This document shows positions 464-52,354 of a stretch of 57,220 nt of DNA, one piece after another. Source of the stretch: a bacterium HR15 (GTDB lineage: Bacteria; Armatimonadota; Fimbriimonadia; Fimbriimonadales; GBS-DC); assembly GCA_002898555.1 (NCBI GenBank), contig BEHR01000023.1:1-57220 (forward strand), read 5' to 3'. Numbering within the stretch: position 1 is the stretch's first letter; every line of letters begins with the position of its first letter. The translations under genes and the position numbers were made by a program. The notes under the pieces were generated by a model. It searched no databases. It was not told where the DNA came from and was given only the letters and a program-made list of their open reading frames with translations.

Positions 464-478
464 TAGGAGGCAGCTACA

Positions 479-1309
479 ATGAGCGAGGAGAAGCCGACTC
501 AGGATGAGATGAGCACAACTGAAAATGCCGAATCCCCGCAGCTGGCGGAGGCATCCGCGCCAGCGGAACCATCCGACTCGTCAGAGCAGTCTGAACTGGC
601 TGGACACTCGGATCAGTCGGAAACAACACCGACTGCCTCCGGCGCGGAACCTACCCCAGCGAAACCGTCACTGCCACCGCCCCCCGTGCTAAGTGGGCTG
701 ATTGGGCGCAAGCTTGGCATGATGCACATTTTCGACAGCGAAGGACGGATGGTGCCCGTGACGGTGCTGGAAGTCGGTCCATGCTTTGTGGTGCAGGTGC
801 GCACGCCAGAGCGGGACGGCTACTACGCCGCGCAGATCGGCTTCGAGCGTATCGCCCGGCGCAAGGTGAACAAGCCGTTGGCAGGTATCTTCAGAAGGGC
901 AGGGCTGGAACAGCCTCTGCGCCATCTGAAAGAGTTTCGCGTGCTGTCAGGTCAAGCGGTGCCTGGGCAGGAAATTCGCCCAGAGCATGTGTTCCAAGTG
1001 GGCGAAGTGGTACGCGTCACGGGTATCTCGAAGGGCAAGGGCTTCGCCGGCGTGGTGAAACGCTATGGCTTCGCCGGTGGTCCGATGACGCACGGCTCCA
1101 TGACCCATCGCCGACCCCTCTCCAGCGGCGCCACCGGTCCACAGCGTGTGTTCAAGAACAAGCCGATGCCCGGACGCATGGGGGGCGAGCAAGTCACTGT
1201 CCGTGGATTGACCATCGTGCGCATCGAGCCAGAGCGCAATCTGATGTTGATCCGGGGCGCTGTGCCCGGCGGACGCGGCTCGATCGTCTATGTGCAAAAA
1301 CAGATGTAG
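479..1309 (+). CDS. rplC: 50S ribosomal protein L3 with N-terminal acidic extension
   Basis: L3 is an early-assembly protein of the 50S subunit. The family core starts near residue 70 (LSGLIGRKLGMMHIFD) and includes the glycine- and histidine-rich stretch GGPMTHGSMTHRRPLSSG. L3 is usually about 205-215 aa; this one is 276 aa because of a Ser/Glu/Pro-rich N-terminal extension of about 70 residues. Within it, about residues 31-48 form X-S-D/E triplets encoded by a 9-bp periodic DNA element (553-624) like those in the intergenic gaps. ATG 479 has a well-placed GGAGG at 467-471. A start inside the extension is possible, but no Met codon lies between residue 11 and the core. Confidence 0.95.
   Translation: MSEEKPTQDEMSTTENAESPQLAEASAPAEPSDSSEQSELAGHSDQSETTPTASGAEPTPAKPSLPPPPVLSGLIGRKLGMMHIFDSEGRMVPVTVLEVGPCFVVQVRTPERDGYYAAQIGFERIARRKVNKPLAGIFRRAGLEQPLRHLKEFRVLSGQAVPGQEIRPEHVFQVGEVVRVTGISKGKGFAGVVKRYGFAGGPMTHGSMTHRRPLSSGATGPQRVFKNKPMPGRMGGEQVTVRGLTIVRIEPERNLMLIRGAVPGGRGSIVYVQKQM
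553..624 (+). repeat. 9-bp periodic element inside the rplC extension (about 8 units)
   Basis: From 553 to 624 the DNA reads as about eight consecutive 9-mers, for example ATCCGACTC (571), GTCAGAGCA (580), GTCTGAACT (589), GGCTGGACA (598) and GTCGGAAAC (616). GGCTGGACA is nearly the GGCTGGACC at 10752, and GTCAGAGCA resembles the GCCAGAGCG at 2301. The period equals three codons, so the element is translated as NNN-TCN-GAN, giving X-Ser-Asp/Glu triplets. Confidence 0.7.
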
Positions 1310-2282: not shown

Positions 2283-2318
2283 GTCCGACCTGTCCAACCC
2301 GCCAGAGCGGTCTGACTA
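2283..2318 (+). repeat. 9-bp periodic element, four units (rplW-rplB gap)
   Basis: Exactly 36 bp, four in-phase 9-mers: GTCCGACCT, GTCCAACCC, GCCAGAGCG, GTCTGACTA. It starts one base after the rplW stop codon and ends shortly before the rplB Shine-Dalgarno sequence. Together with 10725-10760 it is the cleanest copy of the family. Confidence 0.65.
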
Positions 2319-3922: not shown

Positions 3923-4795
3923 ATGGGTCAGAAAATTCATCCGATTGGCTTTCGTGTGGGCATCACGCGCGACTGGGAGAGCCGTTGGTACGCGCCCAAG
4001 TCGCAATATCGCCACCTGCTCTACGAGGACTACTTGATTCGCAAAGCCATCAAGGAGCGGTGGTACGGAGCAGGTATCTCACGCATCGAAATCGAGCGCG
4101 CGGCGAACATCGTGCGCGTGATTATCTATGCTGCGCGCCCAGGTCAAATTATTGGGCGTGGTGGACAGGGCATCGAAGAGGTGACTCGCGCCGTCCACAA
4201 AGTGCTGCACCCCAATAAGCCTGACCTACGCATCGATGTGGAGGATGTGCGCAACCCTGACACCGACGCTCAACTGGTCGCAGAGAACATCGCGCAGCAG
4301 CTGGAGCGGCGTGTCTCTCACCGACGCGCGATGCGCCAGGCGCTCGCACGAGCCCAACGCGCCAATGTACGCGGCATCAAGATTATGGTTGCAGGGCGAC
4401 TGGGTGGTGCCGAAATCGCGCGCACGGAATGGGACCGGGTCGGTCGCGTGCCGCTGCAGACCCTCCGCGCCGATATCGACTATGGCTTTGCCGTCGCCTA
4501 TACCATCTACGGCACCATCGGCGTCAAAGTTTGGATTTACAAGGGGGATATTCCCGTCACCGAGCGCCGTATCCTGCTCTCGACCATCACGACGCCCGAG
4601 GCAGCGTTCGAGCCCTCTGTGCGTGCTGCACGCCCTGCCGCTACGGAACGCCCTGCTGGACCACGCCGACGCCGTGGCGGTCCGCGCCGACGCGGCAGAG
4701 GTGGAGGTAGCGGGCAGGGACGCGGCCCATCGCGCGGCAGAACAGAACGCCAATCCAGCGCGCCCGCTGAAAGTGAACCCCCTGTGGAGGAATAG
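3923..4795 (+). CDS. rpsC: 30S ribosomal protein S3 with Arg/Gly-rich tail
   Basis: S3 lies at the mRNA entry channel. The start [14 protein letters not shown] is canonical, the KH domain carries the [12 protein letters not shown] loop (about residues 78-85), and the C-terminal domain has [13 protein letters not shown]. The family is typically 210-240 aa; here 290 aa. From about residue 230 a low-complexity tail alternates Pro/Ala with [15 protein letters not shown]. It starts directly after rplV. Confidence 0.95.
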
Positions 4796-5492: not shown

Positions 5493-5542
5493 ACCCTGTG
5501 TCTGCCCATTAAAAAACAAAACGCATAGGAGGCAGGAACCAT

Positions 5543-5860
5543 ATGGAAGAGACCACTTATACAACGGAGACAGCGGAGGCACCGACCACGACGCAGACCA
5601 TCCGACCCTATCGGGGGAAGCGCAAGGTGCGTGTCGGGCGCGTCGTCAGCAACAAAATGGACAAAACGGTCGTGGTTGCGGTCGTGCGCAGCTTCCGCCA
5701 CCCCCTGTACGGGAAAACCATCCGCCGCACCAAAAAGTATATGGCGCACGACGAGCACAACAAATGCCAAGTGGGCGACCTGGTGGAGATTGTCGAAACG
5801 CGCCCGCTCAGCCGCCATAAACGCTGGCGCGTACGCGCCATCTTGGAGCGACCTGAGTAA
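5543..5860 (+). CDS. rpsQ: 30S ribosomal protein S17 with short N-terminal extension
   Basis: S17 is an early-assembly OB-fold 30S protein. The core begins near residue 28 ([20 protein letters not shown]) and carries [19 protein letters not shown]. It is 105 aa because of about 25 extra Thr/Glu-rich N-terminal residues. GGAGG at 5528-5532 supports ATG 5543. No better internal start with its own ribosome-binding site is seen. Confidence 0.95.
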
Positions 5861-6622: not shown

Positions 6623-6636
6623 TGGCGGCTTAGATC

Positions 6637-6663
6637 GTCCAACTTGTCTGACCCGCCTGACGG
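6637..6663 (+). repeat. 9-bp periodic element, three units (rplX-rplE gap)
   Basis: Three in-phase 9-mers GTCCAACTT, GTCTGACCC and GCCTGACGG lie between the rplX stop and the rplE ribosome-binding site. The first matches a unit at 10734 exactly. Confidence 0.6.
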
Positions 6664-6695
6664 AACAGATGAAATAAGTAGGGAGGCGATACACA

Positions 6696-7379: not shown

Positions 7380-9473
7380 ATGAAATCGTACACAGCAGAC
7401 CACATCCGCAATGTGGCGATGGCAGGGCACGGCGGGAGTGGCAAGACCACCCTCGCCGAACATTTGCTCTACCTCGCAGGGCATATCGATCGCATCGGGT
7501 CTATCGAGGCAGGCAACACCGTCTCGGACTTCGACCCCGAGGAGATACGGCGCAAAATCAGCCTCAGTACCTCCCTGCTACCTATTGAATGGAACGACCA
7601 CAAAATTAATCTGCTCGATGTGCCCGGCTTTCCCGACTTTATCGGCGAACTTTACTCCGCGCTGCGTGTTGCCGATGCGGTGCTGCTGGTGGTGCCTGCG
7701 CAGGCGGAGATCGAGGTGGGCTTCGAAAACGCATGGGAGCTTTGTGAAAAGTATAAACTGCCGCGCATCCTCTTCGTCAATAAGATGGAGCGCGACAATG
7801 CTGACCATACCAGCCTCCTGCAGAACCTGCGCGCCACCTACGGCAATCGCATCGTGCCTGTACAGGTGCCCATCGGGTCTCAGACGAGCTTTCAGGGTGT
7901 GGTCGATGTGATTCATAACAAAGCCTATCTGGGCAAGGATCGCGACACCACTGCCAGCGAAGTGCCCAGCGATCTTCAGGCAGAGGTGCAGCAGGTGCGC
8001 GAGATGCTGATGGAGGCCGCAGCCGAAGCCGATGATGCCCTGCTGGAAAAATACTTGAACGGGGAAGCCCTCACAGACGAGGAGCTGGTGCATGGGTTCC
8101 ATGCGGGCGTGCGTACAGGCGCGATTGTGCCCGTGCTGTATGGCTCCGCGCAGGCAGGCATCGGGCTGACGCCCCTCCTACAGGCATTGATCGAGCTTGC
8201 ACCCAGCCCTGTCGAAGTGCCCGCCCCCAAAGCGGAAGATCCCCGCACGGGTACGCAAGTGGAAGTGTCCTGCGACCCGAACGCGCCCCTGTGTGCCTTC
8301 GTGTTCAAAACCACTGCCGACCCCTATGTGGGCAAACTAACCTATTTCCGGGTGTATGCCGGCACGATTCGCGCCGATTCGCAGGTCTACAACGCCAACA
8401 AAGAGCGTGACGAACGCATCGGTCAGCTCTTTTTCATGCGAGGCAAGAACCAGGAAGCCACTTCCGAGATTCGTGCGGGCGATATCGGCGTCGTTGCCAA
8501 ACTGCAGGAGACCGCCACAGGGCATACCCTGTGCGACCGCAATCGCCCGCTGCTTCTACCGCCCATTGAATTTCCCGACCCCATCTACACCGTCGCGATT
8601 GTGCCCAAAACCAAAGCGGACGAGGATCGGCTGGGACCTGCCCTTGCCCGCCTGCAGGAGGAGGATCCGACCCTGCGCGCACGACGCGACCCAGAAACGG
8701 GGCAAACCCTGCTGATGGGTATGGGCGACCTGCATTTGGAGAGCGTGATCGAGAAGCTCAAGCGCAAATTTGGCACGGAGGTCACCACCGAAGAGCTGAA
8801 AATTCCCTATCGCGAGACCATCGCGCGTCCCGTGCAGCGCGTCGAAGGCAAGTTCAAACGCCAGACAGGCGGACGCGGACAGTACGGACACTGTTTCATT
8901 AACATGGAACCGCTGCCACGCGGCACAGGCATCGAATTCACCGAGACCATCGTCGGCGGCGCCATCCCCAAAAACTACATTCCTGCTATTGAAAAGGGTA
9001 TCCGCGAAGCAGCCGAGAAAGGCGTGATTGCCGGCTATCCCGTCACCGACTTCCGTGTGGTCGTCGTGGATGGCTCCTACCATGAAGTCGACTCCTCCGA
9101 TCAGGCGTTCCGAATCGCGGGCAGCCTCGCGTTCCAAAGCGCAGCGGCTCAAGCGAACCCCGTGATTCTGGAGCCGATTCTGGAGGTAGAAGTGGATGTG
9201 CCCGAAACCTATACGGGCGATGTGATGGGCGACCTGAACGGAAGACGCGGACGCATTCAGGGCATCGAAAGCCTCGGAGCTGGGCGACAACTCATCCGTG
9301 CCCTCGTGCCCATGAGCGAGATGACCCGCTACGCGCTGGAGCTGCGCTCCATCACGCGCGGACGCGGACGCTTCCGAACCCGCTTCTCCCACTACGAGGA
9401 GGTGCCCTTCAATATCGCCCAAGCACTGATCGAGAAGTACCAAAAAGAGAAGGCAGCTGCCGCTGAGCACTAA
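7380..9473 (+). CDS. EF-G-like translational GTPase (EF-G2 subgroup) within the spc cluster
   Basis: This 697-aa protein has the five-domain EF-G architecture. G1 is GHGGSGKTT (16-24), not the classical AHIDAGKT. G3 is DVPGF (80-84), so the catalytic His of DTPGH is Phe. G4 is NKMERD (134-139), with Glu at the usual Asp. Domain IV/V motifs such as the GRGQYGH stretch and GDVMGDLNGRRGRIQGIE are intact. These G-motif variants match the EF-G-like (EF-G2, often annotated fusA2) subgroup rather than main EF-G, which probably lies upstream of tuf outside the window (inference). It has a strong AAGGAGG at 7366-7372 and lies between rplE and rpsZ, an atypical position. Its exact role (translocation, recycling, stress) cannot be told from sequence. 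Confidence 0.9.
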   Translation: MKSYTADHIRNVAMAGHGGSGKTTLAEHLLYLAGHIDRIGSIEAGNTVSDFDPEEIRRKISLSTSLLPIEWNDHKINLLDVPGFPDFIGELYSALRVADAVLLVVPAQAEIEVGFENAWELCEKYKLPRILFVNKMERDNADHTSLLQNLRATYGNRIVPVQVPIGSQTSFQGVVDVIHNKAYLGKDRDTTASEVPSDLQAEVQQVREMLMEAAAEADDALLEKYLNGEALTDEELVHGFHAGVRTGAIVPVLYGSAQAGIGLTPLLQALIELAPSPVEVPAPKAEDPRTGTQVEVSCDPNAPLCAFVFKTTADPYVGKLTYFRVYAGTIRADSQVYNANKERDERIGQLFFMRGKNQEATSEIRAGDIGVVAKLQETATGHTLCDRNRPLLLPPIEFPDPIYTVAIVPKTKADEDRLGPALARLQEEDPTLRARRDPETGQTLLMGMGDLHLESVIEKLKRKFGTEVTTEELKIPYRETIARPVQRVEGKFKRQTGGRGQYGHCFINMEPLPRGTGIEFTETIVGGAIPKNYIPAIEKGIREAAEKGVIAGYPVTDFRVVVVDGSYHEVDSSDQAFRIAGSLAFQSAAAQANPVILEPILEVEVDVPETYTGDVMGDLNGRRGRIQGIESLGAGRQLIRALVPMSEMTRYALELRSITRGRGRFRTRFSHYEEVPFNIAQALIEKYQKEKAAAAEH

Positions 9474-10152: not shown

Positions 10153-10722
10153 ATGTCGAGAGTGGGTAAGCGACCGATTCCCATCCCGAAGGGCGTGGAA
10201 GTCAAGATCGAGAGCAATCGCATCACGGTCAAGGGACCTAAAGGCGAACTGAGCCACCAACTGCCCGATGTGGTGCGCGTTAGGCAGGAGGATGGTCAGC
10301 TGCGCGTGGAGCGCGTTAATGACGAGCGATTCGCCCGCGCCCAGCACGGACTGCAACGCACCCTCATCGCCAACATGGTGCGGGGCGTTTCTGAAGGCTT
10401 CGAAAAAACACTGGTGCTGGTCGGCGTGGGCTATCGCGCCCAGGTGGAAGGCAAAGAGCTGGTGCTGCAGGTGGGCTATTCGCGCCCCGTGCGTATCCAG
10501 CCCCATCCAGGCATTCACTTCGAGGTCGAGCAAGACCCACAGACCCGCAACTTGCTTATCCGGGTACGCGGCATCGACAAGCAGGTGGTGGGGCAGCAGG
10601 CGGCGGATATTCGCGCTATCCGCCCGCCCGACGCCTATAAGGGCAAGGGACTGCGCTACCTAAACGAACCGCTGCGCCTGAAACCGGGCAAACAGCAAGC
10701 AGGGAAGGGTGGTAAGAAATAA
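10153..10722 (+). CDS. rplF: 50S ribosomal protein L6
   Basis: L6 lies near the sarcin-ricin loop and factor-binding site. The 189-aa protein starts MSRVGKRPIPIPKGVEV and carries the C-terminal signature RPPDAYKGKGLRY. Two tandem L6 folds fit the length. GAGGAGGCG precedes ATG 10153. Confidence 0.96.
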   Translation: MSRVGKRPIPIPKGVEVKIESNRITVKGPKGELSHQLPDVVRVRQEDGQLRVERVNDERFARAQHGLQRTLIANMVRGVSEGFEKTLVLVGVGYRAQVEGKELVLQVGYSRPVRIQPHPGIHFEVEQDPQTRNLLIRVRGIDKQVVGQQAADIRAIRPPDAYKGKGLRYLNEPLRLKPGKQQAGKGGKK

Positions 10723-10724
10723 GA

Positions 10725-10760
10725 GCCTGCCCTGTCCAACTTACCTGACCCGGCTGGACC
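10725..10760 (+). repeat. 9-bp periodic element, four units (rplF-rplR gap)
   Basis: Exactly 36 bp of in-phase 9-mers: GCCTGCCCT, GTCCAACTT, ACCTGACCC, GGCTGGACC. It begins just after the rplF stop codon and ends beside the rplR Shine-Dalgarno sequence, the same placement as the copy at 2283-2318. Confidence 0.65.
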
Positions 10761-10776: not shown

Positions 10777-11139
10777 ATGAAACGAACGCCAAGAGAGAAA
10801 CGAATCATTCGCCATCGGCGCATCCGGCGTGTGATTTTCGGCACGCCGGAACGCCCGCGCCTCTGTGTCTACAAGAGTCTGAAGCATATCTACGCGCAAA
10901 TTATTGACGATACCAAGGGGCACACCCTGGTCGCGGCGTCCACGCTGGACCCTGCCCTGCGCGACCAATTGACCAGCACAGGGAACAAGGAGGCAGCGGC
11001 AGCGGTTGGGCGGCTCGTGGCACAGCGCGCCCGTGAAAAGGGCATCACTCAGGTGGTTTTCGACCGAGGCGGATTCCGCTATCACGGACGCATCGCCGCA
11101 TTAGCCGACGCTGCCCGCGAAGCCGGTTTGGAATTCTAA
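10777..11139 (+). CDS. rplR: 50S ribosomal protein L18
   Basis: L18 binds 5S rRNA with L5 and L25. The protein has the L18 pattern [31 protein letters not shown] and ends [28 protein letters not shown]. Length 120 aa is normal. AGTGAGGTGA precedes ATG 10777. Confidence 0.96.
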
Positions 11140-19395: not shown

Positions 19396-19827
19396 ATGAA
19401 ACAGCGCACTTATACGGCAAAGCCAGATGAAATCACACGCACATGGTGGGTCGTGGATGCGGCGGGCAAACCCGCGGGACGGCTCGCCGCCCAAGTCGCG
19501 CGCCTGCTGCAAGGCAAGCACAAACCCACCTATACCCCCCACATGGATGTGGGCGACCATGTGATTATCTTGAACGCTGAAAAGGTGGTTTTTACAGGCA
19601 GAAAATGGAAAGAGGTGCTTTATCATCACACGATGTATCCGGGTGGGCTGCGCGCCTACACGCGCGAGCAACTGATGCAGAAAAGCCCAGAAAAGTTATT
19701 GGAGCGCGTCATCAGCGGGATGCTGCCCAAGAACAAGCTGCGCGACCGCATGCTCAAACGGCTGCGCATCTATCGGGGCACGGAGCATCCCCATGCCGCG
19801 CAGCAACCGCAACCGTATGAACTTTAG
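19396..19827 (+). CDS. rplM: 50S ribosomal protein L13
   Basis: L13 is an early-assembly 50S protein. Motifs: WWVVDAAGKPAGRLAAQVARLLQGK, DHVIILNAEKVVFTGRK, and the GMLPKNKLRDRMLKRLRIYRG signature. Length 143 aa. AAGGAGGAGG precedes ATG 19396. Confidence 0.96.
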   Translation: MKQRTYTAKPDEITRTWWVVDAAGKPAGRLAAQVARLLQGKHKPTYTPHMDVGDHVIILNAEKVVFTGRKWKEVLYHHTMYPGGLRAYTREQLMQKSPEKLLERVISGMLPKNKLRDRMLKRLRIYRGTEHPHAAQQPQPYEL

Positions 19828-19854
19828 GTCCGACCCACCTGACCTGTCCGACTG
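19828..19854 (+). repeat. 9-bp periodic element, three units (rplM-rpsI gap)
   Basis: Three in-phase 9-mers GTCCGACCC, ACCTGACCT and GTCCGACTG fill almost all of the gap between the rplM stop (19827) and the rpsI Shine-Dalgarno sequence (AAGGAGG at 19858-19864). Confidence 0.65.
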
Positions 19855-19872: not shown

Positions 19873-20271
19873 ATGACAACGGAGCAAGTGCGTTATTACG
19901 GCACCGGGCGGCGCAAGACCGCCTCTGCGCGTGTATGGTTGATGCCCGGCACGGGCAAAATCATCATCAACGGGCGTGAATCGCTCGATTACCTGCGACG
20001 CCTGACCCTGCAACGCATCGTGCAACAACCGCTGCGCCTGCTGGGGCTGGAGGGGCAATACGATGTGATGGCGACCGTGCGCGGCGGCGGTCTCTCTGGG
20101 CAAGCCGGTGCGGTGCGGCTCGGCATCGCCCGCGCCCTGCTGCAGGTGAACCCGGAGTTCCGCCCGATTCTCAAGCAGAACGGGTTGCTGACCCGCGACG
20201 CCCGCGAGAAGGAGCGCAAGAAATACGGACGCCACGGCGCCCGCCGCGGCTTCCAGTATGTCAAGCGGTAA
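19873..20271 (+). CDS. rpsI: 30S ribosomal protein S9
   Basis: S9 reaches the P site with its C-terminal tail. The protein has [35 protein letters not shown] and the C-terminal [17 protein letters not shown] with the conserved terminal Lys-Arg. Length 132 aa. The purD ATG follows the stop codon directly. Confidence 0.96.
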
Positions 20272-50954: not shown

Positions 50955-51743
50955 ATGCGAGCCGTGCTAAGTTTGATAATCGCTATCGGCTGGTTTGGCG
51001 GGGGCGCAGGCATCGTGTCCCTCGCGGATGAGGCGATTCTTCGAATCCGCATCGAAGCCGAGGTTCGTGTTCAGTCGGAGCGGTTCCGCCTGGGTGACAT
51101 CGCAACGGTGGAGGGTGGCACGCCTTCCCGATGGGAGCAACTGAAGCAGATCGAGCTGGGCGCCTCGCCCTTGCCCGGTCAGAAACGGCTCTTCACCCGT
51201 CAGCAGCTTATCACCCGCCTGCGCCAGCACGGCATCGACCCGCGCACCGTGCAGATTGCGATGCCCGATACGGTGCGCATCACACGCGCTGCGCAATCGC
51301 TACCGGTGGACGCGCTCGTGCAATTCGCGCGAGAGCAGTTAAAGCAGGTGCTGGGCGATGCGGCCGCGCAGTGGCGGCTGGACAGGGAGCAATCGCTTGC
51401 CCCTCTTGCCCTGTCAGAGGGTGAACTGACTTTTGAACAGGTCGGTGAGACCCGCATCAGCACCGATTCCGCCACGCTGGAGATTGCCATCTTAGTAGAT
51501 GGTCAGCCAAAGGCGCGGCAAAGGGTGCGCTTCCTTGCACCCCCACGCAATCGCACGCTGCTGATACGCGCTGGCGAGGCGGTGCAGGTGCAGGTGCGTG
51601 TGGAAGGCGTGCTGCTGGAGGTATCGGGGGTGGCACGTGCCTCTGGGGCAGACGAGGAGATTATCCCTGTTTATATCCCCACCACGCAGAAAACGGTTCG
51701 TGCGCGCATCATTGACAGAGGGCGCGTGGAGGTGATACTATGA
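50955..51743 (+). CDS. flgA: Flagellar basal body P-ring formation protein FlgA
   Basis: FlgA is a periplasmic chaperone for FlgI P-ring assembly. This 262-aa protein has a signal peptide ending near VSLA, then LRIRIEAEVRVQSERFRLGDIATVEGG (SAF-type domain) and a C-terminal half with LLIRAGEAVQVQVRVEGVLLEVSGVARASGADEEIIPVYIPTTQKTVRARII, the typical FlgA tail. ATG 50955 (with GTG 50952 next to it) follows TGGAGC. Its stop overlaps flgH. Confidence 0.85.
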   Translation: MRAVLSLIIAIGWFGGGAGIVSLADEAILRIRIEAEVRVQSERFRLGDIATVEGGTPSRWEQLKQIELGASPLPGQKRLFTRQQLITRLRQHGIDPRTVQIAMPDTVRITRAAQSLPVDALVQFAREQLKQVLGDAAAQWRLDREQSLAPLALSEGELTFEQVGETRISTDSATLEIAILVDGQPKARQRVRFLAPPRNRTLLIRAGEAVQVQVRVEGVLLEVSGVARASGADEEIIPVYIPTTQKTVRARIIDRGRVEVIL

Positions 51744-52354
51744 AGGTGCTTGGCTTGTTGCTGCTGGGATGCTGGCTGAGCATGTCGGCTATGTCGGACG
51801 AGTCGGGCAGATTGGATTCCCTTCTTCCTGCGCCCAGTGGCTCCCTCTGGAGCGAGCTGGGTGGCTCGTTGTATGAAGATTTCAAGGCGCGACGGGTGGG
51901 CGACCTGCTCACGGTTGTCGTGACGGAAAGCACCACCGCCAGCACGAACGCCGACACCGCGGTCAAGAAGAGCGAATCGGCATCCACGCAAGCAGGTGTG
52001 GGCCCCTTGCTCAAACTGCTCTGGCCCGAGCTGAGTGCGGGTGGCAAAACCGACCTCAGCGCGTCAGGCAGCACCACACGCAGCGGGCGTATCACCACCC
52101 GCATCACCGTCGTGGTGGTGGAGGTGCTCCCGAACGGGGTGCTGCGCGTGGAGGGGCGACGCTCGCTCAAAATCAACGAGGAGACGCAGACGCTCATCTT
52201 TACTGGGCTGGTGCGCATCCGCGATATTCGCTCGGACAATACTATCCCATCCGCGCTGGTGGCAAACGCCCAGATCCAGTTCGAGGGCAAAGGCGTGGTC
52301 GGCTCCCGCCAGCGTGAGGGGTTAATCACCAAACTCTTCAAGGTGCTGTTTTAG
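51740..52354 (+). CDS. flgH: Flagellar L-ring protein FlgH
   Basis: FlgH forms the outer-membrane L ring. The family signature is present: SLWSELGGSLYEDFKARRVGDLLTVVVTESTTAS, then LSASGSTTRSGRITTRITVVVVEVLPNGVLRVEGRRSLKIN and GLVRIRDIRSDNTIPS. FlgH is usually a lipoprotein; the start MKVLGLLLLGCWLS has a lipobox-like LLGC (Cys 11) but an unusually short signal. Length 204 aa. No flgI, flgF or flgG is adjacent. Confidence 0.9.
   Translation: MKVLGLLLLGCWLSMSAMSDESGRLDSLLPAPSGSLWSELGGSLYEDFKARRVGDLLTVVVTESTTASTNADTAVKKSESASTQAGVGPLLKLLWPELSAGGKTDLSASGSTTRSGRITTRITVVVVEVLPNGVLRVEGRRSLKINEETQTLIFTGLVRIRDIRSDNTIPSALVANAQIQFEGKGVVGSRQREGLITKLFKVLF

Follow-up and report, generated by a model that had tools for sequence, protein, structure and literature searches.

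A nine-base repeat found in spacers and genes probably rewrote the middle of an older N-terminal extension of ribosomal protein L3

The gene for ribosomal protein L3 in this genome opens with an acidic stretch that has a 9-bp periodicity, and a similar rhythm is seen in spacers of the same operon. Did a DNA repeat create this part of the protein, reshape it, or merely come to resemble it? The window, meaning the whole 57,220-nucleotide stretch of DNA that we analysed (G000:C23:1-57220, part of a 3.04-Mb assembly), includes the S10/spc operon region and begins within the S10 operon; the nearest named relatives of the genome are Armatimonadota of the Fimbriimonadales. We assigned the gene to uL3 using the TIGR03625 (L3_bact) profile, which matches residues 73-273 (E=5e-72) over its full length (positions 1-202 of 202) at 241.9 bits against a curated cut-off of 142.9, and PDB L3 chains align with residues 72-273. 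The ~72 residues ahead of this core carry a net charge of about -12, and three quarters of them are S, P, E, A or T. AlphaFold2, run with a ten-sequence alignment, returned a mean pLDDT of 40.5 that was poor even for the known L3 core and so carries no information on disorder. The features of the gene are as follows.

465..470, forward strand: Shine-Dalgarno sequence AGGAGG, 8 nt ahead of ATG 479, read from the sequence and conserved in relatives
479..1309, forward strand: rplC, ribosomal protein uL3 (276 aa) with an N-terminal extension, from TIGR03625 and PDB L3 chains
479..694, forward strand: acidic N-terminal extension of L3, residues 1-72, ending PPPPVLS before the core, homologous in 13 relatives
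571..624, forward strand: 9-bp-periodic segment of the extension, profile score 37.5, sixth in 1.26 Mb

The periodic segment divides into the units ATCCGACTC GTCAGAGCA GTCTGAACT GGCTGGACA CTCGGATCA GTCGGAAAC, which are read in frame as (P)SD SSE QSE LAG HSD QSE. The preliminary description was right that these units are translated as X-Ser-Asp/Glu; its 9-mer register, 553+9n, sits one base off the codons, for which the reading frame is 554+3n. Where it counted about eight consecutive 9-mers, only those at 571, 580, 589, 607 and 616 keep at least four of the six fixed bases of GTCNGAC and those at 553, 562 and 598 keep merely three, leaving L3 as a short array with only five good units. The likeness it drew between GGCTGGACA and a unit at 10752 is at chance level, with GGCTGGAC occurring four times on the forward strand of the window and once on the reverse. 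Positions 552-605 nevertheless give the top lag-9 self-match in the window (60% over 45 positions, the next best being 56%). When we scored the segment with a repeat profile built from the genome's other arrays, L3 being masked, it reached 37.5 bits, the sixth-highest score of the distinct arrays found in 1.26 Mb; reversed sequence scored at most 34.1 bits, and none of 20,000 codon shuffles of the extension reached the score of the array. The RNA of the segment folds a little more stably than its shuffled versions (z -3.05), as expected because the unit is palindromic; this is not shared by spacer arrays, which fold no better than shuffled sequence (z -0.29 to 0.85) and support no shared hairpin or terminator.

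To place the segment, we defined the repeat across the genome. Its unit is 9 bp, GTCNGAC-NN, with a palindromic core and in tandem; the N and NN positions change freely while GTC and GAC stay conserved, a pattern that does not resemble fresh slippage. The search covered 1.26 Mb of the 3.04 Mb, taken as stretches. Three-unit matches numbered 33, compared with four for a reversed-pattern control, and on one strand we counted 45 arrays of at least 20 bits compared with 11 in reversed sequence, so that roughly one array in four at this threshold, the lowest that we applied, would be due to chance. The density of tandem pairs is 22 per Mb in coding sequence and 31 per Mb in spacers, and zero in a sister genome (G003), in which the same profile found no arrays in 400 kb. 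The repeat family is therefore real. It is not a simple tandem repeat or VNTR of near-identical copies: Tandem Repeats Finder reported no repeat in the window, L3 segment included, and N and NN vary. We saw no larger mobile element accompanying the nonamer and no sequence shared between arrays beyond it, and literature searches returned no match for the repeat sequence and, among the papers listed, nothing relevant on SDLSDLSD or nonamer repeats.

Across the phylum, three-unit arrays were present in 20 of 291 genomes, with a maximum of 96 per strand; other genomes of the same family had zero in this survey. Five scattered Armatimonadota (G095, G167, G229, G067 and G222) have 59-96 arrays per strand, with zero in most of their neighbours.

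Intergenic arrays of the window include the following.

2283..2318, forward strand: nonamer array in the rplW-rplB spacer (48 bp; 16 bp in G003), intergenic
6637..6663, forward strand: nonamer array in the rplX-rplE spacer (73 bp; 10 bp in G003), intergenic
10734..10760, forward strand: weaker array between the ORFs at 10153-10722 and 10777-11139, containing GGCTGGACC, intergenic
19828..19854, forward strand: nonamer array in the spacer of the ORFs at 19396-19827 and 19873-20271, intergenic

Array-bearing spacers of the same operon measure 55, 48 and 73 bp, compared with 2, 16 and 10 bp in the sister genome. Judged by these lengths, the intergenic arrays of the operon are insertions, whereas the L3 array appears to have added no net length. 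The S10 operon spacers at 1310-1364, 5493-5542 and 6623-6695 are 55, 50 and 73 bp here and 2, 12 and 10 bp in the sister genome, and their extra length is only partly recognisable as repeat. The array after rplW also forms a 12-codon ORF (2280-2318), the ATG of which overlaps the rplW stop codon (TGATG).

The repeat is also found in about two dozen other proteins of this genome. Its unit can be read as Ser-Asp-X, as X-Thr-X or as Val-X-X, a frame in which a T at N creates a TGA stop. The Ser-Asp-X reading is the one used by 25 of 32 coding arrays; those in the other two frames are mostly weak or near uncertain gene ends, and because gene calls outside the window came from a simple hexamer-based caller, some starts are approximate. 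The bias was sharper for strict tandem units (20 of 21) than for single units (62 of 147), and 7 of 8 coding arrays in two distant array-rich genomes are likewise in this frame. In nine of the 32 coding arrays the end lies no more than 60 nt from a stop codon, where 1.6 were expected. The window holds a second coding array.

51775..51819, forward strand: SMSAMSDESGRLDS, near the N-terminus of the ORF at 51740-52354, score 29.0

Another array (G000:C15:37202-37264; KQDQPDQSDSADSSDQPDASAS) occupies a variable linker of a protein that we take to be SecA-like from how its flanks read. This protein has 1016 aa both here, with the array, and in the compared genome, which suggests that the coding array replaces a linker at about the same size, as in L3. 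Two other array-bearing proteins gained a C-terminal piece.

To separate DNA from peptide as the source of the rhythm, we used a codon test that is independent of the DNA profile and leaves L3 out. Where Ser-Asp/Glu recurs at 3 or 6 residues, serine is encoded by TCN in 68 of 77 cases (88%), compared with 856 of 1791 (48%) at isolated sites (P=4e-13), and a G precedes the pair in 48 of 77 (62%) compared with 507 of 1791 (28%; P=2e-9). Both biases indicate that the Ser-Asp-X chains of this genome are marked by the DNA repeat and do not reflect peptide preference alone. Does the same hold for L3? The principal alternative is convergence, in which a fast-evolving acidic tail came by drift to show Ser-Asp/Glu every three residues and resembles the repeat through its TCN-GAN codons alone. 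Synonymous resampling of the L3 peptide reached the array score in 0.85% of trials (P = 0.0085), so the peptide accounts for much of the match, and the DNA-level excess beyond it is modest. Only one of the five good units keeps GAC itself, the other four having GAG, GAA, GAT and GAA, so that the Glu codons break the consensus at position 7, at which the trained profile has 72% C; sister L3 extensions, moreover, are also of low complexity, some with a near-triplet rhythm, such as EAAESQSEAAESQ in L004. Against this, those sister extensions score 5-12 bits compared with 37.5 here, all five phased serines are TCN, for which chance at the isolated-site rate is 0.478^5 = 2.5%, and other periodic Ser-Asp/Glu of this genome is clearly shaped by DNA and almost absent from the sister (23.4 compared with 1.8 per 100,000 aa). 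We therefore regard convergence as rather unlikely, and the L3 segment as probably a member of the 9-bp family found in the spacers, as the preliminary description proposed.

The age of the extension bears on whether the repeat could also have created it. We compared L3 with relatives from other genera of the same family, and 13 relatives in three of these (g2, g4 and g5) have a homologous extension of 64-97 residues with an M-x-EEK-like start and a K(R)-x-L-PPPP hinge; in genera g3 and g6 and in other readable families, L3 starts at the core. GGAGG(C/A)AG is kept upstream of the same start, and close pairs show an open frame in which substitutions are biased to the third position. These observations make it very improbable that the start was mis-called and that translation begins at the core, with the extension as an untranslated leader: the candidate codon, GTG 686, is in frame and immediately ahead of the core, but it has no Shine-Dalgarno sequence and one relative (L014) has Lys at its position. 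An extension common to sister genera that lack the repeat is older than the repeat, and its 72 residues fall within the range of the relatives, so no net insertion is seen. The sequence comparison thus indicates that the repeat did not create the L3 extension. The preliminary description had suggested that the extension arose when rplC gained an intergenic element at its 5' end by fusion; the same repeat is indeed present in neighbouring spacers, but the relatives keep extension, start, Shine-Dalgarno site and hinge with no 9-bp array or periodicity, an outcome that the description had itself named as refuting the idea, and the array is in mid-extension between conserved flanks, not at the 5' end, which makes this origin scarcely credible. 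Its converse, that the L3 coding repeat seeded the spacers, draws on the shared unit only and is equally improbable, as G029 and others with abundant arrays have a plain L3 start with no extension, and a search for near-copies of the L3 array in other places found none, its 18-mers being no richer in near-copies than codon-shuffled versions.

We consider it fairly probable that a lineage-specific nonamer, acting at the DNA level, colonised tolerant sites and rewrote the middle of a pre-existing L3 extension. The nonamer would have entered or expanded in short operon spacers, at protein ends and in linkers that were already disordered, and its palindromic core, which reads much alike on both strands, would make orientation matter little. 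Within genes it would persist almost solely as TCN-GAC-NNG, giving Ser-Asp-X, a hydrophilic, acidic peptide that is expected to be disordered; selection against the Val-X-X and X-Thr-X frames at most sites may account for the frame bias. In L3, the acidic low-complexity extension would have come first, translated from its conserved start, and its middle would then have been replaced by, or have re-expanded into, five or six units, through insertion or expansion of the repeat and without net gain in length. More tentatively, a nonamer that spreads patchily through the phylum may repeatedly rewrite disordered segments, the L3 tail included, into Ser-Asp-X, with one frame nearly harmless; if so, the sequence of the repeat itself makes it tolerable in spacers and proteins alike.

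Several known repeats resemble the nonamer in part. The TAACTGA repeats of marine Beggiatoaceae and some cyanobacteria are also short tandem units with a sporadic distribution, missing in close relatives, and are mostly intergenic and close to start codons, also in ribosomal operons, with some at ORF ends or in variable loops (PMC4679880). The nonamer shares their sporadic distribution and presence in operon spacers but not their 7-bp unit, which has stops in all forward frames (PMC4679880); it is instead 9 bp, with the palindromic core GTCNGAC, one coding-compatible frame and similar density in coding sequence and spacers. Rickettsia palindromic elements likewise occur between genes and in frame within unrelated genes as a tolerated peptide, but they are discrete elements of ~150 bp (PMC10969869), whereas the nonamer is a variable tandem array, often with no net change in protein length. 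PARCEL, like the nonamer, is a coding repeat arranged in tandem that has dyad symmetry and occurs patchily; its unit is a 25-residue amphipathic one, and its abstract mentions no spacer copies (PMC2996958). With one unit in spacers and genes and one favoured frame, the nonamer would offer a clean case of a non-coding DNA repeat shaping proteins, for which low-complexity regions may serve as landing zones. Even universally essential L3 appears to tolerate it, but where its tail was already unconstrained, and the patchy distribution among genomes allows direct tests of how the repeat spreads, is lost and is selected by frame.

Other genes of the operon have low-complexity ends or unusual placement. 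S17 (5543-5860) has a Thr/Glu-rich N-terminal extension and S3 (3923-4795) a long low-complexity C-terminal tail, and the sister orthologues of both are of about the same length. An EF-G-like gene of 697 aa (7380-9473) lies inside the ribosomal operon after rplE; its sole match in the stretch of the sister genome that was read is 45% identical and located elsewhere, ahead of rplC.
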